Positions 497-22,843 of a stretch of 32,920 nucleotides of DNA are shown here, in pieces. Below the pieces are notes generated by a model. It did no database searches. It saw nothing but the letters and a program-made list of their open reading frames with translations, and had not been told where the DNA came from. A program made the position numbers and the translations under genes. The stretch is from Gammaproteobacteria bacterium (GTDB lineage: Bacteria > Pseudomonadota > Gammaproteobacteria > Natronospirales > REEB76), in contig JAGXAZ010000008.1 of NCBI GenBank assembly GCA_018971365.1, positions 1-32,920 of the forward strand. Direction: 5' to 3'. Within the stretch, counting starts at the first letter, position 1, and each line of letters starts with the position of its first letter.

Positions 497-1291
497 TCAG
501 TGACCCTCTTTGCGCATGCGATCCAGGCGCTGGCGTGCAAGTTTCGCCGCGCTGCTTTTGGGGTACTGCCGCAGGACGTTCTGCAGGGTTTTGCGCGCGA
601 CGCTGAACTTGCCGAGTTCGTATTGCGAATATCCCAGCTTGAGCAGCGCATCCGGCGCCTTGTTGGAATCCGGATAGCCCTGCACCACAGCCTGATAGTT
701 CACTACGGCACCCTGGAAATCGCTCATCTGGTAATGCGCCTCACCCATCCAGAACTCCGCATTCGGCACCAGCGGACTTTGCGGATACTGCTGAATGAAA
801 TTGGTGAATCCATTGATCGCATCCTGATAGCGGCCCTGTTTCAGCAGGCTGAAATTCTGCTGGTAGGCCACTTGGTCACCGCCGGCGGCAGCGGATGCCG
901 TACCCGCAGTCGGTACCGGCGCCGCACTGCTCGCGGCGGTCGCTCCAGTGCCCACGCTCAGCTCAAGCTTCTGCAAGCGCTTGTCGAGATCCGAATACAA
1001 ATCCCGCTGTTGTTTGACGCTGAGTTGCTGATCGTGCTGCAGCACCTGGACATCTCCACGCAGTTCGTTGACCTGCTGCTGCAGGCTTTCCTGGTTCTGC
1101 GACAGATTCACCAGACTCTGATTGTTGAATATCTGATCGAGCCGACCAACGCGTGTCTCCAGTTGCTGCTGGCGCGCCAGCAACTGCTGCTGCCGGATGT
1201 ACACCGGATCGTCCGGCCGCACCGTCATGCAGCCGACCAGCAGCACGGCCGGCACCGCGAGTACGCACGCGCGGATACCAAGCGCTTTCAT
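497..1291 (-). CDS. cpoB: Tol-Pal system coiled-coil/TPR protein CpoB (YbgF)
   Basis: 264 aa ORF; signal peptide, coiled-coil Q-rich N-terminal part, C-terminal TPR (YQQNFSLLKQGRYQDAINGFTNFIQQYPQSPLVPNAEFWMGEAHYQ); 4-bp ATGA overlap with pal. Confidence 0.92.
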   Translation of the reverse strand: MKALGIRACVLAVPAVLLVGCMTVRPDDPVYIRQQQLLARQQQLETRVGRLDQIFNNQSLVNLSQNQESLQQQVNELRGDVQVLQHDQQLSVKQQRDLYSDLDKRLQKLELSVGTGATAASSAAPVPTAGTASAAAGGDQVAYQQNFSLLKQGRYQDAINGFTNFIQQYPQSPLVPNAEFWMGEAHYQMSDFQGAVVNYQAVVQGYPDSNKAPDALLKLGYSQYELGKFSVARKTLQNVLRQYPKSSAAKLARQRLDRMRKEGH

Positions 1292-1815
1292 TGCGTCAGG
1301 TACACCAGCACCGCCCGCCGGTTCAGGTGCCAGCAGGCTTCGTCATGTTCATGGCACACGGCATGCGCTTCGCCATAACTCACGGTGCTCAACTGGTTGG
1401 GATTGACGCCCTGGAACAGCAGGAAGCGGCGTACCGATTGTGCACGGCGGTCACCGAGGGCAATGTTGTATTCCCAAGTACCGCGCTCGTCGGTATAGCC
1501 CTCGATCCGCACTCTGGCTTCGGGGTGCGCCATCAGGTATTTGGCGTGCGCCGTCAGTAAGTCCAGATACTCGGGTTTGATGTTGCTCTTGTCAAAATCG
1601 AAATACACGGTCTTCTGGTAAAGGATATTGTTCGGGTCGTCCAAAGGACTGAGCGTGGTTTGCGGCGGAGCCACGGCGGTCGTCGTGGTGGGCGCGGTGC
1701 TGGCAGGCGGCGCGGTGACCGCCGGCGGTGCCGGCACGGGTTTCACGGTCTTGGCGCAACCGGCAAGCACCAACGCCACCGCCAAAATCAACGAAGCGTA
1801 TCGTTCCATCTTCAT
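1288..1815 (-). CDS. pal: Peptidoglycan-associated lipoprotein Pal
   Basis: MKMERYASLILAVALVLAGC lipobox, OmpA-like domain VYFDFDKSNIKPEYLDLL...RVRIEGYTDERGTWEYNIALGDRRAQSV; start placed at the signal peptide with upstream AGAGG. Confidence 0.95.
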   Translation of the reverse strand: MKMERYASLILAVALVLAGCAKTVKPVPAPPAVTAPPASTAPTTTTAVAPPQTTLSPLDDPNNILYQKTVYFDFDKSNIKPEYLDLLTAHAKYLMAHPEARVRIEGYTDERGTWEYNIALGDRRAQSVRRFLLFQGVNPNQLSTVSYGEAHAVCHEHDEACWHLNRRAVLVYLTQ

Positions 1816-1882
1816 AATTGTGCCTCTGCAAAGAAAATATGGTGATGCAAAAAAGCGCTCGGACCACTCCCCCGCCTGCTTA

Positions 1883-2226
1883 CTATTGTGACAGGAATAG
1901 ACGGTAAACGGGAGTGTGCCTGCTCGCCGCGGGTGGAGATTGCGACCGTCACTCGCCAAGTGGGCCGTCTTCCCCAATGTCCACGGAAACCCGCATGGCC
2001 GCGATAATGCACGCCGCGGCGGATGATTACGTTGCCCCCTGGAAGAAACCCAGCACCTTGTCCGCGTCACCACAAACAGGGCTCCGCGGCCGGGAATGCC
2101 GGGTTTAACGCTGGCATTGCGCAAACCCCATGTCTCACTATGCGCCGCCGCGAGCGTGTTGCCGTCCGCCGACACCCTGGCCCGAGCAGCGACGCCGGCG
2201 TCAAACGTAGCGCGCTCCGGTGTCAC
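1883..2226 (-). pseudogene. Decayed 5'-truncated duplicate of the tolB 3' end (psi-tolB)
   Basis: Minus-strand frame 1 reads TPERATFDAGVAARARVSADGNTLAAAHSETWGL, matching intact TolB [34 protein letters not shown]. The 3' end in another frame reads HTPVYRLFLSQ* at 1883 versus HAPVWGPFLSQ* in intact tolB. The frame change implies frameshift decay. Weaker similarity may extend to about 2440. Confidence 0.85.
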
Positions 2227-2459
2227 GCCCGCACTGCTACCATCGTCACGATTGCACGTGACTCTAAGGGCGCATGCATGCAGAAGCTGCTGCCATGGTT
2301 GACCTCCGCCGTCAGCGCGCGTCAGCCGGACACTTCAAGACGCTGATAGCACATGCGTGGAAGATCTCGTGTGATGGCAAAACTGGCAATCTTGTCGCCG
2401 CATCGCCGTCACACGATCTGAATCCGTCACGTGGTCATGCTACCCGTCGGCCCCGCCAT

Positions 2460-5400
2460 TTAATCCGTACCAAGCAGTACGGCAGCCGGCAAGGGACTCA
2501 ACAGCCGGGCGGCGATGAACTCGTCGCTTTGACACTTGCGTCCGGTAAAAAGTTCGCGCCAGGTTCGCGTTTTCGAATCTTCCACGACGCAGCGTGTATC
2601 CCCCCACGATGCGGCGGCAAGCGCGCACCGGTCGCCATCCATCAGACCGGGAGACACGCGGGCGACGAAGACGCGTACCGCCGTGCCCGCATGCGCGCGC
2701 TCGAAGGCCAGCACCTCCCCGGCGCGCGGTCCTTGCATCGCCAGGGATTGGTAGCTTGTGCCTGTAAACACCTGCGGATAACGGCGGCGAAGGGCGAGAA
2801 GGCACGCCAAGATATAAAGTTTGACGCGGCCGTCGGGCCACGCGTGCAGCAGCCCGTGAACCGGCGGCGTCGAATTTATCGGACGATCGCCCTGCGCCGA
2901 GGAAAACTCAGCCAGCAGGCGCTCACGCAGAACGAAATCCACCGCCCGACGGTTGTCCGGATCCACCAGCGTGAAATCCCAGAGTTCGCTGCCCTGATAA
3001 ACGTCGGGCACGCCGGGCGCCGTGCACTTGAGCGTGAGCGCGGCGAGACCGGCCAACGCTCCGCTGCGAGCGACGGCGCCTGCAAAGGGCAAAAAACCGC
3101 GCTGAAACTCCCCGCCCCGCGCCGGATCAAGCAAAGCCTCCGCATAGTCGCCGACGACCGCCTCGTATCGGATGTCGGGTGCGAGCCAGGAGGAACGCAG
3201 CTTGCCCTCGCGCAGCGCCTTAGTCAGATATTCACGGAGCCGTGCCGAGAATTCCGCGCACCTCTCCGCATCCGGCGGTGCATCGGCGGGCGGCGGCCAG
3301 ATGGCGAGCAGAGTCTGCCAGACCAGGTATTCGTCCGCGGGATGCAGCCCGGCGGGACGCATACGGGCAGCGGCGGCGCGCAGCCTCGGAACGAGTGCCT
3401 GCCAGTCCTGTGCGTGGGCTGCAAGCATGGCGAGGCGCAGACGCGCGTCCTCGCCGCGCTTGGTGTCATGCGTGGTGCTTGCATTCAGCGCCGCCGGCCA
3501 GTCGCGTGCGCGCCGGCGCATGCGGGCGTGAACATCCTCGGCCGTGATCGCGGCGACGCGCGGATCGCCGCCAACCTCATTCAGGGCGAGCAGCCCGAAA
3601 TCGCGGTAAAAAGCCGTGTCTTCGAGCCCCTTGGCCATCGCGGTGGCGGCGAGCTGCCAGAGGTGCGCCACGCCGTCGCGAAGTGGAGCCGGAAGCCGCG
3701 CGGTTTCCTCGTCCCGCAGCGCCAGTAGTTGCACGAGCCATGTGCGCGCCGGCGCGTCGCCGATCGCAGCCGCCGCGCGTGCGACGATCGCCTCCTGTGC
3801 GGCGCGGGCGGCGGGCGGCGCATCGGCATAAGCACGGTACACGGGCAGCGCGATCACGAAAGCGGTTAGAGCTTCGCGCAGCCGCTCCGGCGCCACCGGT
3901 GCGCGTGCTGCGAGCGCCGCGACGATGCGATCCAGCATCGGCGCAAACAATTCCGTGACGGCCTCGCATTTGGCCCCTACCAGCGCCTCGGTAAAGGGCC
4001 GCGCATCGGGCACAAACGCGCCCCACAGTGCGCGCAGCCGGTCGGCGCCCGCGGCAGGCACGAACACCCGGGTCACGGTGTTGAGGAACTCGTAACCCGT
4101 CGTGCCGGCAACCGGCCAAGGACAAAGGGCCTCGTCCGCGGCGAGAATTTTCTCCACCCACAGGGGTGCGCCGCCCTGCGCCGCAGCCAATTCGTGCAAG
4201 GTCTCGAGATAGCGGCCCGGCGCCGCGAGCCCATCCACGTGATCGAGCCTGAGCCCCGCTACCCCGTCCATGGCAAGCAGGCTGCGGATGCCGGCGTGCA
4301 CCGCAGCGAAGACCACCGGACGCTCCATGCGCAGGGCCGCGAGATCGGTGATGTCGAAGAAGCGGCGGTAATTGATTTCCTGCGGCCCGCGGCGCCAGTG
4401 CACCGGCCGCCAGACCTGCCGTTCGAGGAGCCGTGCGACGCGGTTTGCGTCATCCGAAATCGCGGCGGCGGCCGCGTCCAGCGCGTCCGCTATGGGGACG
4501 TGTTCAGCGAGCGTGGCAAGTTCGGCCTCAAGGGCAAGTCCGGCGGCACGCCTCGTCTCCGTCGCCGACGTGGCAAGTGCGCGCAGGCGGCGTGCAAGCT
4601 CGGTAAGACGGGTGGCTTCCGGCGCCCCGATGCGGAGCCCGGCCAGCCGGACGAGTCCCGCGGTTGAAGCCGGCGCGAGCGGCAGGCGATGGGAAAAATA
4701 CGTAGCGCAAAATCGGCCCGAGGGTTCGAAATTCACCCGGATTTCGCCGCGGGCGAGCACGGTTTCGAGAGGTGCGCCGAGTATCGGCAGCGTCAGACGG
4801 CCGACTTCCGCCGACCAGTCCACGTCGAAGCTCGCATCATGCACTGAGGCGTGGCCCCATTCGAGGAGGTCCATCCACCAGGGATTGGCGGCATCCGCAC
4901 CCATGTGATTGGGTACAAAATCAATGATGGCCTGCATCTTCGCCAGCCTCAGCACGTGCAACAGCGCGGCAAACTCTCCGGGCCCGCCGCGATCCGCGTC
5001 CAGCCGGGCGGGATCGGTCATATCGTAGCCGTGCGCGCTGCCCGGCACGGCGCTCATCACGGGCGAGAGGTAAAGATGACTCACGCCGAGGCGCGCAAGG
5101 TAGGGCACGATCGCGGCCGCCTGCCGGAACCCGAACTGCTTGTTTAACTGCAAGCGATAAGTCGCGATAAGTGCGGATCGCGGGAGCGGCGCCGGTTTGC
5201 CGCGTTCCTGCTGCACGCCACGCAGTACTTCGATGAAGCGGGGATCGCTCAGCCACTGCGGCCAGGGGGGAAGGCGGCGGCGACACCAGTTGGGCTCCTC
5301 ATCTGTTGTGCCCGGCACGTTAACCGGATCCGCGATGCCGAGCGCGTCCTCGGGCTGAATCGCGAGCAACCGGCTCGGGGTGCGCGCAAGCCAGCGGTAC

Positions 5401-7262
5401 ACGGCGGCGGCCGGCGGCTCGGCCTCGGCTCCCGGCAACCCGGCGCGCCGCAGGCACTCGCGGAGTACCGCGCGCTCCCCGGGCCGCGCAGCGTGTGCCG
5501 CCTCACGTGCCTCGGTTGAGGGCCACAACCCGAGCCGGTCCGTGCGCGCGAGATCTGCCCCGGCCCACCAGCCGGCGAGAGGTGGCAGGTCGTGAGTGCC
5601 GGCCATCGTGAGCGCCTCACGCGGATAGTCTTCAGGAGCCCGCGGCTGTCCGGTTTCTCCGCGCTCGAAATACAGCAAACGCAGCGAGAGAATACCGCGC
5701 GCCGCGAGCTGGTTTCGCAGTCCCTCGGGCACCGTGCCGAGGTCCTCGCCGATGACCAGGCAGTGCGCACGATGACTTTCGAGCACAATCGCAGCGAGCA
5801 ACGGCTCCAGCGGGTAGCGCAGGTAGGTGCCCTCTACCGGCTCCACTCCGGGTGGAATCACGAACAGCCGATTGAGCCCGAGCACGTGATCGAGGCGCAG
5901 CGCGCCGGCGTGACGCATATTGGCGCGCAGCAGCTCAATGAATGGCGTGAGCCGCCGCACGCATAGACGCCGCGGATGCAGCGGCGGGAATCCCCAGTTC
6001 TGTCCCCGAGGATTGAGCGGATCGGGCGGCGCGCCGACCGCAAGCCCCATCGCAAAATCCTTGCCACCGGCCCAGACTTCGGCACCCGCGGGATCAGCGC
6101 CGAGCGCGAGATCGCGATAAAACCCCAAACCGAGGCCACCCGCGCGGGCACGCCCGGCTGCCGCCGCAAGCTGCTCGGCCGCCTGCCACTGCAGCCAGAG
6201 AAAGAAATCGCAGACTTCCCGCCGCTCCGCGATGAAACGTTCAAGCGCCGAGGATTCTGGCGCGCGCAACGCCGCCGGCCAGTGACGAAAATCCGCACCG
6301 AACTCGGCGGCGACGGTTTCGTGCCGCGCCCAGGCTGCGATTCCCGCAGACGGTTGCCCACAGAACGCGGCGAAGGCCGGATCGCCGCCCGCGGCCCGAA
6401 AGTTCGCAAAGGCCTCGCGCGCAATGCGGAGTTTCAGCTTTGTCACCGCCGGATAGTCAATCCGCGGCTGGGCGTTGAGTGCGGCGATGCGCGCGGCGCA
6501 GGCCGGACTTGCAAGCCGTTCACGCAACGGTGCGTTCAAGCCCGGCAGCGAGCGCACGTCCAGATACAACGGATTGAGTGCAAGGCGCGAACTTGGCGAA
6601 TAAGGGCTCGCCTGCCCCGGTGCGGCCAGGAACGGCGCATGCAGCGGATTGAGTCCCAGAATGGTCGCGCCCATCGCGCCCGCAGCCTCGCCGAGACCGG
6701 CGAGATCGCCGAAATCGCCGAGGCCAATGCTCGCCGGCCCAAGCTGTTCGTAGAGCTGGATTGCAAACCCGTAGCCACGCAGCGGAGTCTCCGGCCACCA
6801 AGCCCGGGCCGGCGCGCGTATGAGCAGGGTCTCGCTTGTGTTTACGCCGGCCCGTACAGAAACGCGGTAATAACCGGGTGCGAGCGGCGGAAGCATGAGC
6901 ACCCGCTCCGTGCCGCGGTCCTCGAGATCGGCGATTGCGCATGCGCCAGCGGCCTCCCGCGCTTCACCCGTGAGCCGCCATTCGAGCCGGCTTCCGGCAA
7001 GCGCCGCCGGATTCAGGGCGAGACGCGGGGGCGCCGGTTCGAAACTCGCGGCGACCGCGGGCGCCGGTTCACGGGCGTATTCTGCTTCGAGCGCGACGAG
7101 CGCATCCGCCGCCCCGCTGCCGTCCACAGCGTAACCGAGCCCCTCGAGCAGGGCCTTTAGCGTGACCGGCGTTGCCTCGTGGCGGGTGCCGGCGATGTCG
7201 GTATAGGCGGTCGCGAGGCCGACGGCCGCAGCCAGTTCTTCGAGCCGCTGCGGTTCATTCAT
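2460..7262 (-). CDS. Fusion protein: 4-alpha-glucanotransferase (MalQ, N-terminal about 690 aa) + malto-oligosyltrehalose synthase (TreY, C-terminal about 910 aa)
   Basis: 1600 aa continuous ORF. MalQ part: ALRLDHVLGLNRLFVIPPG, VIGEDLGTVP. TreY part starts near SALIATYRLQLNKQFGFRQAAAIVPYLARLGVSHLYLSP, with GLRLDHVDGLAAPGRYLETL and TTGYEFLN. No internal stop. Confidence 0.93.
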   Translation of the reverse strand: MNEPQRLEELAAAVGLATAYTDIAGTRHEATPVTLKALLEGLGYAVDGSGAADALVALEAEYAREPAPAVAASFEPAPPRLALNPAALAGSRLEWRLTGEAREAAGACAIADLEDRGTERVLMLPPLAPGYYRVSVRAGVNTSETLLIRAPARAWWPETPLRGYGFAIQLYEQLGPASIGLGDFGDLAGLGEAAGAMGATILGLNPLHAPFLAAPGQASPYSPSSRLALNPLYLDVRSLPGLNAPLRERLASPACAARIAALNAQPRIDYPAVTKLKLRIAREAFANFRAAGGDPAFAAFCGQPSAGIAAWARHETVAAEFGADFRHWPAALRAPESSALERFIAERREVCDFFLWLQWQAAEQLAAAAGRARAGGLGLGFYRDLALGADPAGAEVWAGGKDFAMGLAVGAPPDPLNPRGQNWGFPPLHPRRLCVRRLTPFIELLRANMRHAGALRLDHVLGLNRLFVIPPGVEPVEGTYLRYPLEPLLAAIVLESHRAHCLVIGEDLGTVPEGLRNQLAARGILSLRLLYFERGETGQPRAPEDYPREALTMAGTHDLPPLAGWWAGADLARTDRLGLWPSTEAREAAHAARPGERAVLRECLRRAGLPGAEAEPPAAAVYRWLARTPSRLLAIQPEDALGIADPVNVPGTTDEEPNWCRRRLPPWPQWLSDPRFIEVLRGVQQERGKPAPLPRSALIATYRLQLNKQFGFRQAAAIVPYLARLGVSHLYLSPVMSAVPGSAHGYDMTDPARLDADRGGPGEFAALLHVLRLAKMQAIIDFVPNHMGADAANPWWMDLLEWGHASVHDASFDVDWSAEVGRLTLPILGAPLETVLARGEIRVNFEPSGRFCATYFSHRLPLAPASTAGLVRLAGLRIGAPEATRLTELARRLRALATSATETRRAAGLALEAELATLAEHVPIADALDAAAAAISDDANRVARLLERQVWRPVHWRRGPQEINYRRFFDITDLAALRMERPVVFAAVHAGIRSLLAMDGVAGLRLDHVDGLAAPGRYLETLHELAAAQGGAPLWVEKILAADEALCPWPVAGTTGYEFLNTVTRVFVPAAGADRLRALWGAFVPDARPFTEALVGAKCEAVTELFAPMLDRIVAALAARAPVAPERLREALTAFVIALPVYRAYADAPPAARAAQEAIVARAAAAIGDAPARTWLVQLLALRDEETARLPAPLRDGVAHLWQLAATAMAKGLEDTAFYRDFGLLALNEVGGDPRVAAITAEDVHARMRRRARDWPAALNASTTHDTKRGEDARLRLAMLAAHAQDWQALVPRLRAAAARMRPAGLHPADEYLVWQTLLAIWPPPADAPPDAERCAEFSARLREYLTKALREGKLRSSWLAPDIRYEAVVGDYAEALLDPARGGEFQRGFLPFAGAVARSGALAGLAALTLKCTAPGVPDVYQGSELWDFTLVDPDNRRAVDFVLRERLLAEFSSAQGDRPINSTPPVHGLLHAWPDGRVKLYILACLLALRRRYPQVFTGTSYQSLAMQGPRAGEVLAFERAHAGTAVRVFVARVSPGLMDGDRCALAAASWGDTRCVVEDSKTRTWRELFTGRKCQSDEFIAARLLSPLPAAVLLGTD

Positions 7263-9051
7263 CGAGCACGACCCGGACCGACCAGGCGGGCAACGTGGCC
7301 TCCGCGCTCACGGGCTGCGCATAGACGAGCCGGCCCGCCGTGGCCGGCGCCGCGAGCGGCATCGCGCCCAGATTCGCCGCCACCTGCCACTGCCCGCCGC
7401 CGGCAAGCGGCCAGGCGACCGCGAACACCGCTGTATCGAGCATTTTCCTGCGGCCGCTCGCAAGACCTGCGAGTCGGGGTACGAGTTCGCGTCGCCGGCA
7501 GGCGATCAAATTGGACAGAAATGCAAGCCACTCGCCGTGCCGCGGCTCACGGGTTTCGGGCCAAACAAGCCGCGAACGCACAAAGGTTTCATCAACGTTT
7601 GGATCGGGAATATCCGCGCGCGAGCGCGGATCGCGAAAGCCGGCGAAGCGGGCGAATTCCGCGCGCCGGCCCGAGCGTACGGCCGAGGCCAGTTCCCCCG
7701 TATAATCGCAAAAATAAAGAAACGGGGTCCCTGCCGCCCACTCTTCGCCCATGAAAAGCAACGGCACGGATGGCGACAGGAACAGCAGGGCATATAACGC
7801 GCGCAAACGCTCGGGCGGCGCGAGCGCCGTCAGGCGTTCGCCGTAAGCACGGTTGCCGATCTGATCATGGTTTTGCAAAAAGTTGACGAACGCGAGCGGT
7901 GGCAAGTGCGCGCTGCGTTCGCCGCGCGGCCGGTTGCGGTAAGCGGAATGCTCCCCCTGATAAACAAAGCCCTCGGCCAGCGCCCGTGCGAGTGCCGCCG
8001 CCGGTTGTCCGGCATAGTCCGCGTAATAGCCGTCGCCCTCGCCGGTGGCAAGAACGTGCGCGGCATGGTGGAAATCGTCGTTCCACTGCGCGGTGCAGCG
8101 CCGCGGCTTGCCGGCCGCATCGCGTTCCAGATAACGCGCCGCATTGTCGTCGTTTTCCAGCACCAGATGCACATGACGATCCGTAATCCTTTCGCGCACC
8201 GTCTCCGCGATTTCCGTCAGGATGTGCACGGGGCTCGGGTCGCGGATTTGGTCCACCGCATCGAAGCGCAGTCCGTCGAAGCGGTACTCTTCCAGCCAAT
8301 ACAGCGCGTTATGGATGAAGAACTCGCGCACTTCGCGGCGCGTGAAATCAATCGCCTCACCCCAGGGCGTGTGATGACACACGGTGAAAAAGTCCGGCGC
8401 GTAACGCGCCAGATAATTTCCGCTCGGGCCGAAGTGGTTGTAAACGACGTCGAGAAATATCATCAGCCCGCGTGCGTGCGCGGCGTCAATCAGATGTTTG
8501 AGGTCATCGGGTCGGCCGTAGGCGGCAGCCGGCGCGAACGGCAGCACGCCGTCGTAACCCCAGTTGCGGCTCCCGGCAAAGTCACTCAACGGCATCAGTT
8601 CCAGCGCCGTCACGCCGAGTGCGGCGAGATGCTCGATGCGGCCGCGCGCGCCGTCGTAATTGCCCGCGGGTGTGAACGCACCGAGATGCACTTCATAAAT
8701 CACGGCCTCAGCCCACGGCCGCCCCCGCCAATCGGTGCTGGTCCAAGCATAGGCGCGCGGATCTATCACCTCGCTCGCACCGTGCGCATCAGCAGGCTGA
8801 AGCCGCGAGGCCGGATCAGGCACCCGCCCACCGTCGCCGAGTACATAGCGGTAACGGCTGCCGGCGCGGGCCTCCGCCGTGGTGCACTCGAACCAGCCTC
8901 CGTCGCCGGCGGTCATCGGCAGGAGACGCTGGTCTTCGTCTTCGAGCAGTACACCGATATGCTTCTCGCCCGGGGCCCAGAGCCTGAAGCGCACGCCGTT
9001 TTCCGTTAATTGTGCTCCCCACGGTGCAGCGTATGAATAATGCAGCGTCAT
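7255..9051 (-). CDS. treZ: Malto-oligosyltrehalose trehalohydrolase TreZ
   Basis: 598 aa; GVRFRLWAPGEKHIGVLLED, VIYEVHLGAFTPAGNYDGA, LRFDAVDQIRDPS, LVLENDDN, FLQNHDQIGNRAYGERL; overlaps malQ-treY by 8 bp. Confidence 0.93.
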   Translation of the reverse strand: MTLHYSYAAPWGAQLTENGVRFRLWAPGEKHIGVLLEDEDQRLLPMTAGDGGWFECTTAEARAGSRYRYVLGDGGRVPDPASRLQPADAHGASEVIDPRAYAWTSTDWRGRPWAEAVIYEVHLGAFTPAGNYDGARGRIEHLAALGVTALELMPLSDFAGSRNWGYDGVLPFAPAAAYGRPDDLKHLIDAAHARGLMIFLDVVYNHFGPSGNYLARYAPDFFTVCHHTPWGEAIDFTRREVREFFIHNALYWLEEYRFDGLRFDAVDQIRDPSPVHILTEIAETVRERITDRHVHLVLENDDNAARYLERDAAGKPRRCTAQWNDDFHHAAHVLATGEGDGYYADYAGQPAAALARALAEGFVYQGEHSAYRNRPRGERSAHLPPLAFVNFLQNHDQIGNRAYGERLTALAPPERLRALYALLFLSPSVPLLFMGEEWAAGTPFLYFCDYTGELASAVRSGRRAEFARFAGFRDPRSRADIPDPNVDETFVRSRLVWPETREPRHGEWLAFLSNLIACRRRELVPRLAGLASGRRKMLDTAVFAVAWPLAGGGQWQVAANLGAMPLAAPATAGRLVYAQPVSAEATLPAWSVRVVLDE

Positions 9052-11177
9052 TTATCGCCGACGAGGTGGAACAGCGCGAGCGCGTGGGCATCGAGCACGA
9101 ACGCCGCGTCGAAAGCATGCAGCGCGACTTTCGCCGCGGCGTCGTTCGCCGTATTGAGCACGCAGGCCCAGCCGTTTCCAAACGCCAATGCCGGGAGTTT
9201 GAACGGCATAGCCACGGCACCGGCGTTCAACAGCAGCAGCAGGATTTCCGCGGGTGAATGCGGTTCTGCCGCCGTCGCCCCGCCCGCGTTGCCGTTTAAC
9301 ATGAGACCCAGCGCGCGTGCTTCGGGATCCTGCCAGCGTTCCGGGGTCATTTCGCTCCCTTCGGGGGCAAACCAGGTCACGTCTTTTACCCCGCGTTCGC
9401 ATTGCGCCTTGCCGTGCATGAAGTGCGAACAGCGCAGCGCCGGATGGCGGCGGCGCAGTTGCAACAGCCGCCGCACGAAAGCGATTTCCCGGCGCTCCGT
9501 CTCGCCTACCCGCTCCCAGTCCAGCCAACTGATTTCATTGTCCTGACAATAGGCGTTGTTGTTGCCCTTCTGGGTACGGCCGAACTCATCGCCCGCAAGC
9601 AGCATCGGCGTACCCTGGGAAAACAGCAGGGTCGCAAGCAGGTTGCGCCGCTGGCGGCGGCGCAGGTCGAGGATCGCCGGATCGTCAGTCTCGCCCTCGA
9701 TGCCGCAGTTGGCGCTCAGATTGTTGTCGCTGCCGTCGCGGTTGTCTTCGCCGTTGGCCTCGTTGTGCTTGGACTCGTAGGACACGAGGTCGGTGAGCGT
9801 AAATCCGTCGTGGCAGGTCACGAAGTTGAGACTTGCACGCGGGCGACGCCCGTCATGATCGAACAGGTCCGCGGAGCCCATGAGACGGGTCGCCAGTTCC
9901 GGCAGCACGCCCGCGTCGCCGCGCCAGAACCGGCGCACGGCGTCGCGATAGCGGTCGTTCCATTCCGACCAGCCGTGACCGTAGTGCCCGAGCTGGTAGC
10001 CCCCGGGGCCGAGATCCCAGGGCTCGGCGATCAGTTTGCGCGTCGCGAGTACCGGATCCTGGCGCAGCGCGTCGAGGAAGCTGCTATGCGGATTGAAACC
10101 TTCGGGCCCGCGCGCAAGCGCGGTCGCCAGATCAAAACGGAACCCGTCCACGTGCATGTGGACGGCCCAGTAACGCAGACTGTCCATGGCCATCTGCAAC
10201 ACACGCGGGTGGCCGAGATTGAAGGTGTTGCCGGTGCCGGTGTCATCGGTGTAATAGCGCGGATTGTCCGCTTGCAGCCGATAGTAACTCGCGTTGTCAA
10301 TGCCGCGGAAACACAGCGTGGGCCCGAGGTGGTTGCCCTCGGCGGTGTGATTGAAGACGACGTCGAGAAGGACCTCGATGCCGGCGTCGTGCAGGCGTGC
10401 AATCATGGTTTTGAAGGCGAACAGTTTCCCGCGCGCGAGATAACGCGGGTCGGGCGCGAAATACGCGATTGTGTTGTAGCCCCAGTAATTGCAGAGTCCT
10501 TTCTCCACCAGATAGCGGTCGTTGAGAAAAGCCTGCACCGGCAACAGTTCGATCGCGGTAATGCCGAGGTTTTTCAAATACGCGATCATCGCGGGAGAAG
10601 CGAGCCCCGCGTCGGTGCCGCGAAAGCGCTCCTCGACCGCCGGATGGCGCAGGGTGAGCCCGCGCAAATGTGCCTCGTAGATCACGGTTTCATCCCAGGG
10701 CCGCGCGCCGACGCAATCACCGCCCCAACTGAACGCCGGGTCCACAACCTCGCATTTCCACATGCCGCGCGCATTGTCGCGCCGGTCAAAGGAAAGATCC
10801 GCGCGCGGTGATCCCACGCGGTAGCCAAAATGGCCATCGGTCCACCTGAGCCGGCCGTGCAGGAGGCAGGCATAGGGGTCGAGGAGCAACTTGTGGTGGT
10901 TGAAGCGATGGCCGCGCTTCGGGTCGTAGGGCCCGTACACCCGGTAACCGTAAAGCGTGCCCGGATGCGCGTCGGGAAGATAACCGTGCCAGACCTGGTC
11001 CGTGCATTCGGGAAGCGCAATGCGTGCACGCTCGCGCGTACCGTTGGGATCGAACAGACACAGCTCGACCTTCTCGGCATGCGCCGAAAACAGCGCGAAG
11101 TTGACCCCGCGGCCGTCCCAGGTCGCGCCGAGCGGGTAGGAATTTCCGGGCAGGACACGCGGTCCGGTTTGAGGCAT
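9048..11177 (-). CDS. glgX: Glycogen debranching enzyme GlgX
   Basis: Start chosen at MPQTGPRVLPGNSYPLGATWDGRGVNFALFSAHAEKVELCLFD (ATG at 11177, upstream GGAG); FRFDLATALARGPEGF, LIAEPWDLGPGGYQLG, SYESKHNEANGEDNRDG; 4-bp overlap with treZ. Confidence 0.93.
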   Translation of the reverse strand: MPQTGPRVLPGNSYPLGATWDGRGVNFALFSAHAEKVELCLFDPNGTRERARIALPECTDQVWHGYLPDAHPGTLYGYRVYGPYDPKRGHRFNHHKLLLDPYACLLHGRLRWTDGHFGYRVGSPRADLSFDRRDNARGMWKCEVVDPAFSWGGDCVGARPWDETVIYEAHLRGLTLRHPAVEERFRGTDAGLASPAMIAYLKNLGITAIELLPVQAFLNDRYLVEKGLCNYWGYNTIAYFAPDPRYLARGKLFAFKTMIARLHDAGIEVLLDVVFNHTAEGNHLGPTLCFRGIDNASYYRLQADNPRYYTDDTGTGNTFNLGHPRVLQMAMDSLRYWAVHMHVDGFRFDLATALARGPEGFNPHSSFLDALRQDPVLATRKLIAEPWDLGPGGYQLGHYGHGWSEWNDRYRDAVRRFWRGDAGVLPELATRLMGSADLFDHDGRRPRASLNFVTCHDGFTLTDLVSYESKHNEANGEDNRDGSDNNLSANCGIEGETDDPAILDLRRRQRRNLLATLLFSQGTPMLLAGDEFGRTQKGNNNAYCQDNEISWLDWERVGETERREIAFVRRLLQLRRRHPALRCSHFMHGKAQCERGVKDVTWFAPEGSEMTPERWQDPEARALGLMLNGNAGGATAAEPHSPAEILLLLLNAGAVAMPFKLPALAFGNGWACVLNTANDAAAKVALHAFDAAFVLDAHALALFHLVGDK

Positions 11178-11256
11178 GGGGCCATTCTCCGTATGCGCTT
11201 CGTTTCGCGGGCCACAGCGATCGCAACCGGCAGATTCCCGTTCATGCAGAACCTGC

Positions 11257-11308
11257 CGCACCCGTGCGACCTTTCGGGTGCGAGCGTTACTTTTACAGAC
11301 TACGCTCG
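11257..11308 (-). other. Two adjacent inverted repeats at the glgB stop / glgX leader
   Basis: CGCACCCG (11257-11264)/CGGGTGCG (11275-11282), and CGAGCG (11281-11286)/CGCTCG (11303-11308) overlapping the glgB TAG; no T-tract, so not called a terminator. Confidence 0.5.
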
Positions 11309-13489
11309 CGCGTGCGTGAGAATCAACGTGGCGAGCGGCGGCAGGACAAGTACCAGCGATTGCCCGTAGCGATGCGCAGCGATCGGTTCGGTCGAAACGC
11401 CGCCGGCGTTGCCTAGATTGTTTCCGCCGTAGACCGCGGCATCGGTATTCAGCGCCTCGCGCCAGTATCCGGCAAGCGGTACGCCCAGACGATATCCGTA
11501 GCGTGGTACCGGCGTGAAGTTCGAGACCACAAGCGCCGGCGGATCGGTCTCCTCACCGTAGCGCAGGAATGCGAACACGCTCTGCCCGGCATCGTCGGCG
11601 ACCACCCAGGCAAAACCAGCGGCGTCGCAATCGCGCCGGTGCAGGGCCGGCAGCTCACGGTAGGCGCGATTGAGGGCGCGCACCAGGTTCTGCATGCCGC
11701 GATGTGGCGCGTGCTCCAGCAGATGCCAGTCGAGGCTCGCGTCGTGGTTCCATTCGCGCCACTGCGCGAACTCGCCGCCCATGAACAGCAGTTTTTTCCC
11801 CGGGTGTCCCCACATGAAACCGTAGTAGGCACGCAAATTTGCGAATTTCTGCCAATTGTCGCCCGGCATTTTCCCGATCAACGAGCCCTTGCCGTGCACC
11901 ACTTCGTCGTGCGAGAGTGGCAGAACGAAATTCTCGCTGAAGGCATAGAGCAGGCCGAAGGTCATCCTGTCATGGTGCCAGCGCCGATACACCGGGTTTT
12001 CACGCATGTAGGCAAGCGTATCGTGCATCCAGCCCATGTTCCATTTGTAGCCAAATCCGAGGCCGCCGGTGTACAGCGGACGCGACACGCCGGGCCAGGC
12101 GGTGGATTCCTCGGCGATCGTGGTCGCGCCGGGAACTTCGGAGAAGACGAGTTCGTTGAGGTGCCTGAGAAACTCTATCGCTTCCAGGTTTTCGCGCCCG
12201 TCATAGCGGTTAGGCAGCCACTCACCCGGTTTGCGGCTGTAGTCGAGATACAGCATCGAGGCAACCGCGTCCACACGCAGGGCATCAAGATGATACTGCT
12301 TGAGCCAGAACAACGCGTTGCCGATCAGGTAGTTCGCGATTTCGCGCCGGCCATAGTTGTAAATTAGGGTGTTCCAGTCGGGATGAAATCCCCGCCGCGG
12401 ATCGGCATGTTCGTAAAGGTGGGTGCCGTCGAACCGGCCGAGTCCGTGCGCGTCGCTCGGAAAATGCGCCGGCACCCAATCGGCGATGACGCCGATGCCG
12501 GCCGCGTGTGCGCGCTCGATGAAACGCGCGAAGGCCGCCGGCGATCCGAAACGGCTCGTGGGCGCATACAGTCCGAGCGGCTGGTAGCCCCAGGAGCCGT
12601 TGAAGGGATGTTCGCTCACCGGCAACATCTCGATATGCGTGAAGCCCAGGTCCTGCGCATAGCCGACAAGCTGATCGGCGAATTCCTCGTAGTTGAGCGG
12701 GCGGTTGCCTGCTTCGGGCACCCGCCGCCAGGAGCCAAGATGCACCTCGTAGATCGAGACCGGCCTGGCGTAGGTCGGGCTTGCGGCACGGCGCGCGATC
12801 CAGTCCGCGTCGCGGAGCTGCAAATGCCCGATATCGAATACCCGCGAGGCGGTGCGCGGCGGATGTTCGGCGGCCAGCGCCAGCGGGTCGGCCTTGAGCG
12901 GCAGCAGCCCGCCCTGCGGGCCACGGATTTCGTATTTGTAGAGCGCGCCCTCGCGCACCTGCGGCACGAATAGCTCCCATACCCCGCAGGCGTGGCGCAG
13001 GCGCATCGGCAGCCGCCGCCCGTCCCAGCCGTTGAAGTCGCCGACCACGGACACGCGCCGCGCATTCGGCGCCCACACGGCGAAGGCCGTGCCGACGACG
13101 CCATCCAGCGTCCGCGGATGCGCGCCGAGTACCCGCCAGGTTTCATGATGAGTGCCTTCGGCAAGTAGGTGCACGTCAAGTTCGCCGAGCACGAATCCGA
13201 AGCGGTAGGCATCGTCAAAGACGGAATCGCCTCCGGGCCACGCGACCCGCAAACGATATTTGTCCTTGCCGTGCGGCAAGCGCGCACAAAACAGGCCCGG
13301 ATAGCGCTCGTCGGCCGCGGCGAGCGCATGCCTATCCCTCTCAATCAGCGTCACCGCACGCGCACCCGGCTGAAACACCCGCACCTCGACACCGTCGCCA
13401 TGCGGGTGCGGACCAAGTATGGAAAAGGGATCGCCACATTCGCCGGTGGCGAGCGCGGCGGCGGCGCTGGCAAGCGGGCTCTCGTTCAC
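11300..13489 (-). CDS. glgB: 1,4-alpha-glucan branching enzyme GlgB
   Basis: 729 aa; [78 protein letters not shown]; 4-bp overlap with the treS fusion gene. Confidence 0.96.
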
Positions 13490-16400: not shown

Positions 16401-16740
16401 GGTGTTGATCCGAGGTGTGATTCACCACCAATTCGGTGATGACCTTCAAGCCGCGCGCGTGGCAGGCGCGCACGAAGCGGCGAAAATCTCCGAGTGTGCC
16501 GTAATGCGGATGCACCTTGCGGTAATCGCTGATGTCGTAGCCGTCGTCCCGGAGCGGCGACGGGTAGAACGGCAGCAGCCAGATGGCGGTGACGCCGAGT
16601 TGGGCTATGTAGTCAAGTTTTTCCCCGAGACCGCGAAAGTCGCCGATTCCGTCGTCGTTGGCGTCAAAAAACGCCTTGACGTGGGTCTGGTAGATGACCA
16701 CATCTTTGTACCAGTCGGGCGCCGGTGCCGTGTCCGCCAT
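13486..16740 (-). CDS. treS: Trehalose synthase / maltokinase fusion (TreS-Mak)
   Basis: 1084 aa; TreS half: [58 protein letters not shown]-terminal maltokinase half: [71 protein letters not shown]. Confidence 0.95.
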
Positions 16741-16743
16741 GCA

Positions 16744-19700
16744 TCAGCCCCTGTTCACGCGCAGTATCATCGCCGGGCGCGCAGGTTCGAGGCGCACGCG
16801 CTGGTGCCGCCCCCGCCACCGCCAGCGCTCGCCGCCGAACAGATCTTCGACGGCGATCGGCGTCTCCTCGTCGGCTTCCAGCATTTCCAGCGGCAGTTCC
16901 ACGTCCGCTTCCTGCGCGCTATGGGAATCGAGACTCACAAGTATCCAGAGCACGTTGTCCGGCGCGCGTTTGGCGTAGAAAAGCACGTGCTCGTTCCAGG
17001 CGGGATGAAAACTCAGGTTGGCCAACTCGGCGAGCGCCGGGTTGTCTCGGCGGATGCGGTTGAGCCGCGTGATTTCGGTTCTGATGTTGCCAGGCGCGTC
17101 GAAGTCGCGATGCTTCAACTCGTATTTTTCCGCATCGAGATATTCCTCGCGCTCCGTTCCGTCTGCGTTGCGCAGCGGCTCGGCCTCGCACAGTTCGTAA
17201 CCAGAATACATGCCCCAGGAGGGCGCAAGCGTCGCCGCGAGCACGGCGCGAATCACGAACCCGGCGCGCACGCCGTCATGCAGATAAAACGGATTGATGT
17301 CGGGCGTGTTGACCCAGAAGTTCGGCCGGAAGTATTCGGCTACCGGGTCGTGGACAAGTTCCTGCAGATAGGCCGTGAGTTCGGCCTTGGTCTCGCGCCA
17401 GGTGAAGTAGGTGTAGGACTGCGAAAAACCGAGCTTCGCGAGCCGGTACATGAGCTTGGGCCGCGTGAAGGCCTCGGCGAGAAAGACCGCGTCCGGGTAG
17501 CGCATACGTACCTCGCCGAGCAGCCATTCCCAAAACGGCAGCGGCTTGGTGTGCGGATTATCCACGCGGAAGATGCGTACGCCCGCCTCGCACCAGAAAA
17601 GCACGACTTCGACGAGTGCTTGCCATAAACCATCGCGATCGCGGCTGAAAAAATCCACGTTGACGATGTCTTGGTATTTCTTCGGCGGATTTTCCGCGTA
17701 GCGGAGGCTGCCGTCGGGGCGCCAGCGGAACCACTCCGGGTGCTCTCTGACCCAGGGATGATCAGGTGAGCACTGGACGGCGAAGTCGAGCGCAACTTCG
17801 AGCCCTTCGGATCGCGCGGCGGCGAGCAGACGGCGAAAGTCGGTGAGCGTGCCAAGCACAGGGTGAATAGCCGTGTGCCCGCCTTCCCGCGCACCGATTG
17901 CCCACGGGCTGCCGGGGTCGCCGGGGCCGGCTTCGAGAGCGTTGTTTTTGCCTTTGCGTTGGCTCGTCCCGATGGGGTGAATCGGCGGCAGATACACGAT
18001 ATCGAAGCCGAGCCCGGCGATGTAGGGCAGATGACGGATGAGATCGTCAAAGGTTCCGTGTTGGCCGTTTTCGCCGAGCGAGCGTGGAAAACATTCGTAC
18101 CAGGCGCCGGTGCGCGCGCGTGAGCGTTCCACGAGCAGCGGATACACGGCTGACTCGCTCAACCCGACGCGCGGCAGGCTCCGCTCGATGAGTGCGGCCG
18201 TGGTATCGGCGAGCAGGAGCTCTGCCCGCGCCGCGACCTCTTCCGCATGCGTCTCGAGCAGCGCCGCGATTTCCGCGAGTTGCGCCCGGGTGCGCCCGCC
18301 GGCGGCGGCACGCGCCTCCGCGAGCAGCGCCTCACCCTCGCCGAGCTCCGGCGCAAGCGGCTGAGCCGCGTCGCGTCGCTTGATCGCGTCCTCCCGCCAG
18401 TTGGCATAGCGGTCGCGCCAGGCGAGCACCTGAAACTCCCAGTTCCCGATGCGATCGGGCGCGAAGCGGCCGCGCCAGCAGTCATTGTCGAAAAACCCGA
18501 GCGGAGCCTCGCGCCATTCGCGCGTGCCCTGCAAACGATACCGCAACGCCGCCGCCGGACGGGCGTGTCCTTCGGCAACCAGATCGGAGAACACCTCAAC
18601 CGTCTCACCCAGCACTCGTTTGACCGGCCAACGGCCGGCCGCGATCCGCGGCATTACGTTTTCTATGGCAATCGGTTGGCCGATTTTCGCCGGCACTCGC
18701 AGGGGGCACGCGACCGCTTCCGCGTGCGCGACCGCAAGTTCGAACCAGCGCACGCCCCGGGGTTCGAGCGCCAGCCGGCTTTCGGCCGTGAGCATCTCGG
18801 GACTGCGTCCGGGCGTGAGTTCGCGAGCGAGCGCGGCATGCAGATCGAGGCGTGCAAACAGCGGCCCGACGTCGATTTCGGCCTCGCGAACGGGGTCGGG
18901 ATTGAGCACGATCAGCACGGGCGCCACGGTGTTCCCCGGCACATGCGCCGCGAGAACGACCGCCTGCGTATCGGCCGCGCTCAGCCGCTTTAGCCGGCCC
19001 GGTGCGGCCAGGGCCGGCACGCGGGCGCGCGTCTTGTTGAGCGCAGCGATTTCCGCGCGCAGATCGAAGCGCGCCGGTTCCGCCGCGCCTGCTTTGCCAA
19101 GCGGTTCGCGCCAACCGCGCGCATAGCCCATCGGCAACACCACGCCCCAGGCCACGGCGGCCGCATAACAGTAGCGGAAGCGCGCCTGGGCCTCGGCCTC
19201 CTCGGCATCGGCAAGGCCCGACGCAATACGCGTGCCGCCGGGTTCTTCGGGAAACGCGATGGTCGGCGCCATCCGCCGCAGCCGCGCCTCCTGCTCGAAA
19301 AACCAGTCGGCATGAAAGTCCCACCAGCAGGCGCTGGAGAAAAACGCGTCAAAACCGACCGATGCGAGCGCCTCGCTGGCCTCGATCGGCGCGCCCAGAG
19401 TCTCGGCCCAGAACGCGGTGCCGCCCGCGCGTCCGGCGGCGAGGATCGCGGTCCAAACCGCCGGCGGCAGACGATGCGCCGCGCGACATACGAGCGCATC
19501 GAAGCCGCGTCGCAACATGCGCTCCGTCACCGCGCACCAGAATTCAGCGAGTTCCGTTGCGGCTGCGCCGCCGAAATCGCACTCGACGAGGCTGGCCGCA
19601 AGTTCCGGGGTCCCGACGCCGGATGGAACGGCGGGAGCGCCGTCCGTTCCGGTTACAAACCAGTGCGGATGAGTGCGTACACGAGAGTCGGCGCGTGCCG

Positions 19701-20004
19701 TGAAGGCGGGCGAAAAATCCGCCGCGACCCGGAATCCGGCGGTGTGCGCCGCCGCAATAAAATTCTTCAGCGCCCGCTCGGCGCTGCTGCGTGCCCCCAG
19801 TTCAGAAGCAAGGCCTCCCGGTTCGAGCGCCGCGAACTCGTGCGTGCCCGCGGCGCGCGGCTGAAGACCACCCAGCCACAGCCAGTCGCAACCAAGCTCC
19901 CCGGCGCGTTCCAGCCACTTGCCCCAAGATGAAACCGGGCCGGCGCGGCGCACACACAGATAAAAAATACGCGGCCCCGAGCGGGGTTCTTCGTGTTCAC
20001 TCAC
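16744..20004 (-). CDS. glgE: Alpha-1,4-glucan:maltose-1-phosphate maltosyltransferase GlgE with about 435 aa N-terminal GH13-like extension
   Basis: 1086 aa, GTG start at 20004. Core: AIENVMPRIAAGRWPVKRVLGE, FPRSLGENGQHGTFDDLIRHLPYIAGLGFDIVYLPPIHPIGTSQRKGKNN, FRVDNPHTKPLPFWEWLL, FLAEAFTRPKLMYRLAKLGFSQSYTYFTWR. Confidence 0.95.
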   Translation of the reverse strand: MSEHEEPRSGPRIFYLCVRRAGPVSSWGKWLERAGELGCDWLWLGGLQPRAAGTHEFAALEPGGLASELGARSSAERALKNFIAAAHTAGFRVAADFSPAFTARADSRVRTHPHWFVTGTDGAPAVPSGVGTPELAASLVECDFGGAAATELAEFWCAVTERMLRRGFDALVCRAAHRLPPAVWTAILAAGRAGGTAFWAETLGAPIEASEALASVGFDAFFSSACWWDFHADWFFEQEARLRRMAPTIAFPEEPGGTRIASGLADAEEAEAQARFRYCYAAAVAWGVVLPMGYARGWREPLGKAGAAEPARFDLRAEIAALNKTRARVPALAAPGRLKRLSAADTQAVVLAAHVPGNTVAPVLIVLNPDPVREAEIDVGPLFARLDLHAALARELTPGRSPEMLTAESRLALEPRGVRWFELAVAHAEAVACPLRVPAKIGQPIAIENVMPRIAAGRWPVKRVLGETVEVFSDLVAEGHARPAAALRYRLQGTREWREAPLGFFDNDCWRGRFAPDRIGNWEFQVLAWRDRYANWREDAIKRRDAAQPLAPELGEGEALLAEARAAAGGRTRAQLAEIAALLETHAEEVAARAELLLADTTAALIERSLPRVGLSESAVYPLLVERSRARTGAWYECFPRSLGENGQHGTFDDLIRHLPYIAGLGFDIVYLPPIHPIGTSQRKGKNNALEAGPGDPGSPWAIGAREGGHTAIHPVLGTLTDFRRLLAAARSEGLEVALDFAVQCSPDHPWVREHPEWFRWRPDGSLRYAENPPKKYQDIVNVDFFSRDRDGLWQALVEVVLFWCEAGVRIFRVDNPHTKPLPFWEWLLGEVRMRYPDAVFLAEAFTRPKLMYRLAKLGFSQSYTYFTWRETKAELTAYLQELVHDPVAEYFRPNFWVNTPDINPFYLHDGVRAGFVIRAVLAATLAPSWGMYSGYELCEAEPLRNADGTEREEYLDAEKYELKHRDFDAPGNIRTEITRLNRIRRDNPALAELANLSFHPAWNEHVLFYAKRAPDNVLWILVSLDSHSAQEADVELPLEMLEADEETPIAVEDLFGGERWRWRGRHQRVRLEPARPAMILRVNRG

Positions 20005-20040
20005 GCTGTCACTATATATATTAGGGCGGCTTTTCGGTTA

Positions 20041-20069
20041 GTCGTAAGCTTATTCGGCCATCATGTCAA
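20041..20069 (-). promoter_or_regulatory. Candidate sigma70 promoter upstream of glgE
   Basis: Minus strand: TTGACA (20069-20064), 17-nt spacer, TACGAC (20046-20041), about 37 nt before the glgE GTG; perfect -35 but weak -10. Confidence 0.4.
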
Positions 20070-20253
20070 ATAATGCTAAACCCATGCAAGCGGGGAATCA
20101 TCCTGCGTTTGCAGACTCAATTCCGGTTTGCGCCGCACATTCCACAATGCTCATCCATGAAGACCCATCAAGTGTAACGCAGCGGTCTAATTGGGCGTTC
20201 TTCTATCGGGAAAATTCAGTGGATAAAACCCGCAGTGGGAAGCCGGCCCTGGC

Positions 20254-21564
20254 CTACTGTGACAGGAACGGACCCCAGACGGGAGCATGCACGCTCACCC
20301 CGGATTGGGATTCCGAAAGACGCTCGCGCACCTGGCCATCCACGGATACCTCGGCAAGTACGCCGCGACCTCCATAACTGGCCTCGTAAATAATCATGCT
20401 GCCGTTGGGCGCAAAGCTCGGTGATTTGTCCAGATCGCCGTCCGTGAGCGTCAACAGCGCGCCGCTGTTGAGATTCATGACGGCGATGTGCAAGCGGCCA
20501 TTTTCGCGGTGCACCATGACCAGCGTCTGGCCGTCGGGCGAAACGCTCGCGCGCGCATTATAGTTGCCGTCGAAGGTGATGCGCTGCGGTGTGCCGCCGC
20601 TCAAACTTACCTTGTAGATCTGCGGACTGCCGCCGCGGTCGGAAGTGAAATACAGGCTCTGACCATCCGGCGACCATGCCGGTTCGGTGTCGATGGCTGC
20701 GGACGTGGTGATGCGGCGCAGCGTGCGGCTGGCAAGGTCCATGATGTAAATATCGGGGTTGCCGGGCGTGGACGACAGCACCAGCGCCAGCCGGCGGCCG
20801 TCGGGCGAGAAGGCCGGCGCACTGTTCAGTCCCGACCGGTCGGAAAGCAGCTCACGCTTGCCGGTATATATGTCCTGCATGTAAATGGCCGGCAAGCCGG
20901 TCTCAAACGATACGTACGCCAGGTCCTTACCGTCCGGCGACCAGGCCGGCGACATGATCGGTTCATTGGAGCTGAATACCGTCTGCGGGTTGTAGCCGTC
21001 GGAATCCGCCACTACCAGCGCATAGTGGCGGTCCAGTCCGCCCTTGCCGGAAACTTCCACGTACGCGATACGCGTGGCGAACGCGCCGCGTTGTCCGGTC
21101 AGCTTCTGGTAAATCAGATCGCTGATCTTGTGCGCGGTCCAGCGCAGAGCCCCGGGAGTAGTAAGCACCGCAAGTCCCAGCAACTGCTGACCGGTATATA
21201 CATTGAACAGCTGGAATTCCACCTGGTAGTTGCCCGCGCCTGCAGGCTTGATACGGCCGATCACCAGGTTGTTGACGCCGAGGATGCGCCAGTTGGTGAA
21301 ATGGATATCCGCCGCCAGCGCCGGCTTCTCCAGCATGGAACTGTCCGGGATTGCCTTGAACCGGCCGCTGCGCGTGAGATCGGCACTGATCACAGCCGCC
21401 ACGTCGGTAGCGGGCGGCGGCCCCGGCACCTGCCAGGCAAACGGCACCACGGCTACCGGCACCGCGGTATTGATCCCCTGGGTAATCTGGATTTCAAGTA
21501 CTGCGTGCGCCACACCCAGTGGCAGCATGGCGAGAATCAAAACCAGGAGCAGTCTGCGCCGCAC
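20254..21564 (-). CDS. tolB: Tol-Pal system beta-propeller protein TolB
   Basis: 436 aa; TolB-type repeats (SPDGKDLAYVSFETGLPAIYMQDIYTGKRELLS, FSPDGRRLALVLSSTPGNPDIYIMDLASRTLRRIT), N-terminal signal peptide, follows tolA. Confidence 0.97.
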   Translation of the reverse strand: MRRRLLLVLILAMLPLGVAHAVLEIQITQGINTAVPVAVVPFAWQVPGPPPATDVAAVISADLTRSGRFKAIPDSSMLEKPALAADIHFTNWRILGVNNLVIGRIKPAGAGNYQVEFQLFNVYTGQQLLGLAVLTTPGALRWTAHKISDLIYQKLTGQRGAFATRIAYVEVSGKGGLDRHYALVVADSDGYNPQTVFSSNEPIMSPAWSPDGKDLAYVSFETGLPAIYMQDIYTGKRELLSDRSGLNSAPAFSPDGRRLALVLSSTPGNPDIYIMDLASRTLRRITTSAAIDTEPAWSPDGQSLYFTSDRGGSPQIYKVSLSGGTPQRITFDGNYNARASVSPDGQTLVMVHRENGRLHIAVMNLNSGALLTLTDGDLDKSPSFAPNGSMIIYEASYGGRGVLAEVSVDGQVRERLSESQSGVSVHAPVWGPFLSQ

Positions 21565-21565
21565 G

Positions 21566-22384
21566 TCAATTCCCCGGACTGTTTTGCGGTGTGAAGTTTA
21601 ATACAAACACGCGCTGGAACAATGACGGCTCGGGTGGCGGCGGCAACGGTGAAGAACGCAACACCGCGGTAATCACGGACTGCTGTATGGCCTCGTTGCC
21701 GTTGCAGGAAATGATCTGTGCATTGGCCACGGTGCCGCCCGGCACCTGCTCGACCTGCACCTTGCAGCTCAAATTGGCCGGTGCGTTGGCCGGTTGATTC
21801 CAGTTGCTCTCCACCTTCTGCCTGACCACTGCCGTCCATTGCTGCAACAAGGATGCGCGGCGCGCATTGAGTGCGCCCTGCTCTACGGCGATCTCGCGCT
21901 GCAATTCGGCTTGACGTCTGGCGTTCTGCTGTTTCTTGGCCGCCGCGGCCGCCTGGGCCTTGAGTTTGGCGATTTTGTCCTGCTGCGCTTTCTCCGCCTG
22001 CGCCTGCTGTTGCAGCTCGGCGAGTTTGGTGTTCAGCGCTTGTTGCGCGGCCGCCTGCTGCTGTTGCAATTGTGCAAGTTTCTGCTGCTCCTGCTCACGT
22101 TCGGTCTTTGCGGCCTGCGCCTGCTGTTCAAGCTTCTGTCGGGCCTCCTGCTTTTGTTTCTCCTGCGCCTGCAGCAGGGCCATCTGCTGATTGATCAATT
22201 TCTGGTCCACTACCGTCGCTTGCACCGGCTGCGCCACCTGCGCTGACCCACCCAACGATGGCAGTGTGGAATTTGTCCAATGGAAGCTCAGGATCATCAA
22301 TACGAGAAATGCCGCATGCAGCAGCACCGAATAAACCCAGGGCAGCAGGCGTTGGGAACGGGCTTGCATCACGGCTTCCGTCAT
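21566..22384 (-). CDS. tolA: Cell envelope integrity protein TolA
   Basis: 272 aa; N-terminal TM segment, long K/Q/A-rich helical domain, C-terminal domain (CKVQVEQVPGGTVANAQIISCNGNEAIQQSVITAVLRSSPLPPPP); overlaps tolR. Confidence 0.95.
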   Translation of the reverse strand: MTEAVMQARSQRLLPWVYSVLLHAAFLVLMILSFHWTNSTLPSLGGSAQVAQPVQATVVDQKLINQQMALLQAQEKQKQEARQKLEQQAQAAKTEREQEQQKLAQLQQQQAAAQQALNTKLAELQQQAQAEKAQQDKIAKLKAQAAAAAKKQQNARRQAELQREIAVEQGALNARRASLLQQWTAVVRQKVESNWNQPANAPANLSCKVQVEQVPGGTVANAQIISCNGNEAIQQSVITAVLRSSPLPPPPEPSLFQRVFVLNFTPQNSPGN

Positions 22385-22836
22385 GACTTGCCGGTGATTT
22401 CCACGCGCGGCGGATTGTTGGGATTGGTCTCCAGCCCCACGCTCGGCGCACCTGCGGCCTGCAGGAGCACCATGCCGCGCAGTACCGAATCGTAGCGGGC
22501 ATCTCGGTCACCGCGCACCACCACGTGGGTGCCAGGCTTGAGTTTGAGCACTGCCGCTACCGTAGCCACCACCAGGCGTGAGTCTATCGGCTGATCCGGA
22601 TGCGCGCCGATATTGAGGTAATACCTGCCGTCCGCCGTCACCGTAAGCACCACTGGAGTCTCGTCGGGTTTCAGGTCCAGCGGTTTGGCGCTCGCCTTCG
22701 GCAAATTTACTTTTACGCCCTGACTGAGCAAGGGCGCCGTGATCATGAAGATGATCAGTAGCACCAGCATCACGTCGATGTAGGGTACGACGTTGATCTC
22801 GCTCATCACCCGTCGTTTGCCGCGTCGTCCGGCCAT
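22381..22836 (-). CDS. tolR: Biopolymer transport protein TolR
   Basis: MAGRRGKRRVMSEINVVPYIDVMLVLLIIFMITAPLLSQGVKVNLPKA; ExbD/TolR family; start placed at ATG 22836. Confidence 0.95.
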   Translation of the reverse strand: MAGRRGKRRVMSEINVVPYIDVMLVLLIIFMITAPLLSQGVKVNLPKASAKPLDLKPDETPVVLTVTADGRYYLNIGAHPDQPIDSRLVVATVAAVLKLKPGTHVVVRGDRDARYDSVLRGMVLLQAAGAPSVGLETNPNNPPRVEITGKS

Positions 22837-22843
22837 GCGATGC

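Follow-up and report, generated by a model that had tools for sequence, protein, structure and literature searches.

Why would a decayed fragment of tolB persist directly upstream of pal in a genome that still carries an intact tolB gene 18 kb away? The question was raised by a stretch of 32,920 nucleotides, hereafter the window, which makes up the entire contig C39 of an assembly from an uncultured bacterium (1.97 Mb in 193 contigs, 81% complete), evidently a metagenome bin. The gene order of the tol-pal operon is highly conserved (PMC7391070), and as of 2017 there were just two species for which promoter positions in this operon had been determined (PMC5479800). The arrangement that we describe is known from this one MAG contig.

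A complete GlgE/trehalose cluster between tolB and pal

Read along the minus strand, the window carries ruvC-ruvA-ruvB and, further on, tolQ-tolR-tolA-tolB, six long glucan and trehalose genes, a 230-bp stretch, a tolB remnant, a spacer, pal and cpoB. The last two genes overlap and are contiguous, with 18 kb between them and tolB. The features of the locus are as follows.

21566..23533, minus strand: tolA, tolR and tolQ, upstream of intact tolB and syntenic with the sister genomes
20254..21564, minus strand: intact tolB
20005..20253, minus strand: gap of 249 bp from the tolB stop to glgE; homology to the sister genomes stops exactly at the tolB stop
2460-20004, minus strand: the six long glucan and trehalose metabolism genes together
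16744..20004, minus strand: glgE (maltosyltransferase), with an N-terminal extension of ~430 aa
13486..16740, minus strand: treS-maltokinase fusion
11300..13489, minus strand: glgB
9048..11261, minus strand: glgX
7255..9051, minus strand: treZ
2460..7262, minus strand: malQ-treY fusion
2230..2459, minus strand: non-coding stretch from the treY stop to the remnant, without tolB homology or any match
1883..2229, minus strand: decayed tolB 3' remnant (tolB codons ~320 to stop), frameshifted, with 7 indels and 62% identity to the congener consensus
1816..1882, minus strand: 67-bp spacer before pal, with a Shine-Dalgarno-like AGAGG at 1823-1827 and ~40% identity to the sister spacers
1288..1815, minus strand: pal, likely start ATGAAG at 1815
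497..1291, minus strand: cpoB/ybgF, overlapping the pal stop and syntenic in congeners

The inserted genes, with glgE, treS-mak and glgB found together, amount to a complete GlgE/trehalose set according to NCBIfam, Pfam and PDB matches. All six encode GH13/GH77-type glucan enzymes, and no integrase or transposase was recognized in the insert. A GlgE gene was absent from all 18 other genomes of the order that we compared; the nearest cluster found, with the same gene order and a GlgE 68% identical, is that of class member G276, and a similar one occurs in class member G165. On the cluster-bearing stretches examined in these two genomes, we observed no match to pal or to an orthologous tolB. The ~430-residue extension of GlgE, also present in G276, lies outside the regions matching solved GlgE structures, in which matches begin at a residue number of at least 424. 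The MalQ-TreY fusion spans 1600 residues and has similar counterparts in a few other class genomes, the closest being that of G276; a search of named genomes with this fusion for a donor returned only distant enterobacterial and other relatives.

Comparison with related genomes showed that tolB is directly followed by pal in nine of ten congeners and in G011, which belongs to the next genus of the family. In the tenth congener, G006, a transposase gene that we assigned by eye from its translation to the IS30 type lies within ~110 bp of the tolB stop (contig C145, about 12970-14013), and pal sits at the end of another contig, so that in this genus the tolB-pal junction has been broken a second time, independently. 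Synteny of the window with the sister genome G002 extends from 31206 to 20254, the exact position of the tolB stop, breaks off there, and picks up again within the remnant at 1946. The congeners show that the ancestral order was tolQ-tolR-tolA-tolB-pal-cpoB. Because they keep tolB and pal adjacent and lack GlgE, and because synteny with G002 is interrupted at the insert, an insertion split tolB from pal in the lineage of the window or in a lineage with which it recombined. Elsewhere in the class, the 1.5 kb that follow tolB in G050 contain no match to pal, a possible further separation.

The tolB remnant and the diverged tract around it

The preliminary description had reported that the tolB 3' end occurs a second time, in decayed form, immediately before pal. 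When 11 congener tolB genes were made into a nucleotide profile, it recovered this copy at 56.5 bits (E 4e-20), aligning the minus strand from 2229 down to 1883 end to end with tolB nucleotides 961-1305 in one alignment, whereas 1000 dinucleotide shuffles of the remnant region scored 3.5 bits at most. Tblastn with intact TolB likewise matched residues 320-374 and 402-436 in two different frames (combined E 5e-10), and a pairwise DNA alignment scored 60 against a shuffle mean of 16.4 (sd 2.1, max 24). The retained stop (1883-1885) lies 67 bp from the pal ATG at 1815, as described. The extent of the copy required revision: similarity holds over 1883-2229 and does not continue to 2440, as nucleotide profile, protein profile and blastn found no tolB homology upstream of 2229, and what is missing is roughly the 5' three quarters of the gene (codons 1-320 of 436) rather than its 5' half.

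Relative to the congener consensus, 208 of 333 aligned bases are identical, and identity per 30-nt bin ranges from 50 to 72% outside the last 30 nt. Given its frameshifts and 7 indels, together with an internal stop and the loss of codons 1-320, the remnant cannot encode TolB. Identities by codon position in its first block (21/32, 25/32 and 16/31) hint weakly at past coding constraint, with Ka/Ks not meaningful owing to the frameshifts.

Which of the two copies is native, a question already posed in the preliminary description, was answered in part. The intact tolB is the lineage's own gene, since it is syntenic with tolQRA and ~90% identical to its sister genomes, and the remnant is a tolB of the same genus, judging from its genus-specific end ...ATTCCTGTCACAATAG. 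In a tree the remnant falls within the genus near G003, with support of only 56 and a very long branch. We then considered whether an integrative element could have supplied the 3' end of the intact gene, leaving the remnant as the displaced chromosomal end. That the insert is flanked by an intact gene at one end and by a 3' remnant at its opposite end would suit such a replacement, as would the departure of the last 30 nt of the intact copy from the genus consensus. However, the six long genes of the insert are glycogen/trehalose enzymes with no integrase recognized among them, the two non-coding gaps share no repeat above shuffles, and the intact tolB is about 90% identical to G002 along its whole length, the same as its flanks, remaining sister-like across the part that matches the remnant and departing only in the last ~30 nt. 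We therefore regard gene-end replacement as very improbable.

Fourfold sites of tolB differ between the window and G002 by a corrected 0.347, or about 0.17 per lineage (0.347/2), whereas the remnant lies about 0.52 per site from the congener consensus, with a branch length of 0.75 in the tree. This is ~3 times the neutral expectation since the G002 split, and simple in-place decay therefore misfits in time. The excess extends beyond the remnant: the spacer shares ~40% identity with the sister spacers, which share ~80% among themselves, and pal differs from G002 at 17 of its first 54 positions (1762-1815), compared to a native-like 22 of 466 in the rest of the gene (p=1.5e-8). Remnant, spacer and pal signal-peptide DNA thus form a tract far more diverged than its flanks and apparently too diverged for decay since the sister-species split, suggesting import from an unsampled relative.

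The abrupt step in divergence inside pal resembles a recombination boundary, which would lie near codon 18. Because the tract looks older than the sister-species split, we infer, as the simplest account, that the split arrangement probably arose earlier in an unsampled relative and was then brought in by homologous recombination. A search of 369 class genomes turned up no donor with the split arrangement, and a search with the DNA of the tract gave only chance short matches. Positions 1-1760 of the window, on the pal side, are closest to G002, while across tolB (20254-28800) G002 and G003 are closer to each other; this contrast suggests recombination among congeners around the locus.

The same step and the differing phylogenetic signal of the tolB and pal sides could also arise if the contig, from a MAG of 193 contigs at 81% completeness, joined DNA of two related, co-occurring species, the joint lying for instance around codon 18 of pal. 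Such a chimera is improbable in our judgment. The suspected joint leaves the remnant, spacer, ribosome site and pal start together on one side, so that one of the organisms would have the arrangement in any case, and the window's assembly contains only a single tolB and a single strong pal match.

Constraint on the last 30 nucleotides of tolB

The last 30 nt of tolB carry a synonymous constraint that has been lost in two tolB genes uncoupled from pal and retained in the remnant. Among nine species with pal behind tolB, 39 of 262 degenerate, amino-acid-invariant tolB codons were also codon-invariant, and these included six of the last eight such codons as opposed to 33 of 254 elsewhere. The permutation probability was 5e-5 for the tolB end and 0.026 for any such interval of the gene, values that come from nine related species and from an end interval noticed before being tested. 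Four of the six fixed end codons are minor ones (share among the codons of their amino acid: GTT 11%, CCA 12%, TCA 12%, CAA 25%), and just one more invariant minor codon occurs anywhere in tolB, for a total of five. The invariant minor codons at the tolB end are not explained by protein constraint. The two ends present in the window are as follows.

20254..20283, minus strand: end of intact tolB, CCCGTCTGGGGTCCGTTCCTGTCACAGTAG, with 3 of 6 otherwise invariant codons changed synonymously
1883..1912, minus strand: retained terminal element of the remnant, CCCGTTTACCGTCTATTCCTGTCACAATAG, matching the congener consensus at 26 of 30 positions

When evaluating the two congener genes that are no longer followed by pal, we observed that the intact tolB of the window has changed three of the six end codons (to GTC, CCG and CAG) compared to one of the 33 others (p=0.008), and that the tolB of G006 has changed five of six compared to eight of 33 (p=0.011), some of these changes possibly reflecting ordinary divergence in what is the most diverged congener. 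The remnant, in turn, has kept 26 of its last 30 nt versus 92 of 139 in its other ungapped blocks (p=0.029), with a GGG to ACC change altering the middle of the 30-mer. In nine congeners the exact 16-mer ATTYCTGTCACAATAG has a single genomic occurrence, which is at the tolB end, and the window's genome has it solely in the remnant. As nine related species underlie the statistics, which were computed once the pattern had been noticed, we hold the functional claim with moderate rather than strong confidence.

We also considered the element as a genome-wide motif or regulon and rejected this, near-matches elsewhere being few and one of them, on contig C151 of the window's assembly, PhoB-box-like ahead of an unrelated gene. 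The PhoB-box-like sequence on C151, TGTCATATTTCTGTCAC (near 5660-5690), lies upstream of an ORF and is conserved in G002 and G003.

We propose that in this genus the last ~30 nt of tolB may be doubly constrained, encoding the TolB C-terminus and serving pal-cpoB as a cis-acting element, the simplest candidates being a promoter and a 5' leader. A partial second tolB end came to lie beside pal, either left there or carried in, and lost its reading frame. The duplication would have separated the two jobs, with the intact copy keeping the coding role and losing the element and the remnant presumably keeping the element and losing the coding role, so that pal expression probably comes from the remnant and is independent of tolQRAB. 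The probable reason for the remnant persisting beside pal would then be that the last 30 bases of tolB double as a switch for pal. A scan found no sigma-70-like promoter in the remnant or spacer, leaving a leader or binding site equally open, and a terminator scan around the remnant returned nothing; the single terminator-like site near tolB lies on the other strand.

The principal competing explanation is that the arrival of the island duplicated the tolB end and that the copy is a functionless leftover decaying neutrally, its clean last 30 nt being due to chance. A frameshifted sequence that is 38% diverged and carries seven indels is consistent with this, the retention of its end is weak when taken alone (p=0.029), and no promoter motif was found. 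Yet in nine congeners these 30 nt show an added synonymous constraint, that constraint is lost in both tolB genes uncoupled from pal, and the divergence of the remnant exceeds what neutral decay in place would give. We consider a passive leftover unlikely, if less so than a chimera. A genus-wide dual-use tolB 3' end, whose uses were divided by a partial duplication that preserved a pseudogene as the regulatory leader of pal, is a tentative but quite possible reading. The account as a whole, comprising a dual-use tolB end, a remnant kept for the pal element and an imported tract, we judge somewhat probable.

Significance and relation to known systems

Beyond the earlier reading, the sequence comparisons indicate an extra constraint on the last 30 nt that would give the remnant a reason to persist, and the tolB end appears to be dual-use, its uses divided by duplication. 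The separation of tolB from pal may thus be read as a natural promoter-mapping experiment, one that indicates a 30-nt element where tolB ends, and it shows codon choice there once the putative extra duty is lifted. It further suggests how an operon can survive an 18-kb insert without losing pal, and that regulatory content may be the reason for which a pseudogene fragment is retained.

Three known systems offer comparisons. Integrative elements at icd carry a substitute 3' end and produce a gene-end duplication at the insertion site. Like them, the present locus has an insert bordered by an intact gene and, at its far end, by a 3' remnant, but it differs in that no integrase was recognized, the intact copy is sister-like almost to its last codon, and the remnant is old and heavily decayed. 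Known GlgE pathway clusters combine glgE, treS-mak and glgB with treY, treZ and glgX (PMC11046441). The enzyme set here is the same, and G276 shares the gene order as well; however, the cluster here splits the tol-pal operon, whereas the cluster contigs of G276 gave no match to pal or an orthologous tolB.

The closest parallel to the proposed expression of pal is the tol-oprL region of P. putida, in which tolB and pal are adjacent. According to Llamas et al. 2003, as cited in PMC5479800, pal (oprL) and ybgF are transcribed there as their own operon. In the window, transcription of pal-cpoB would similarly be expected to be separate from that of tolQRAB and to begin near the tolB end. Unlike P. 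putida, however, an 18-kb cluster and a decayed tolB end intervene here, and the promoter is a predicted one.
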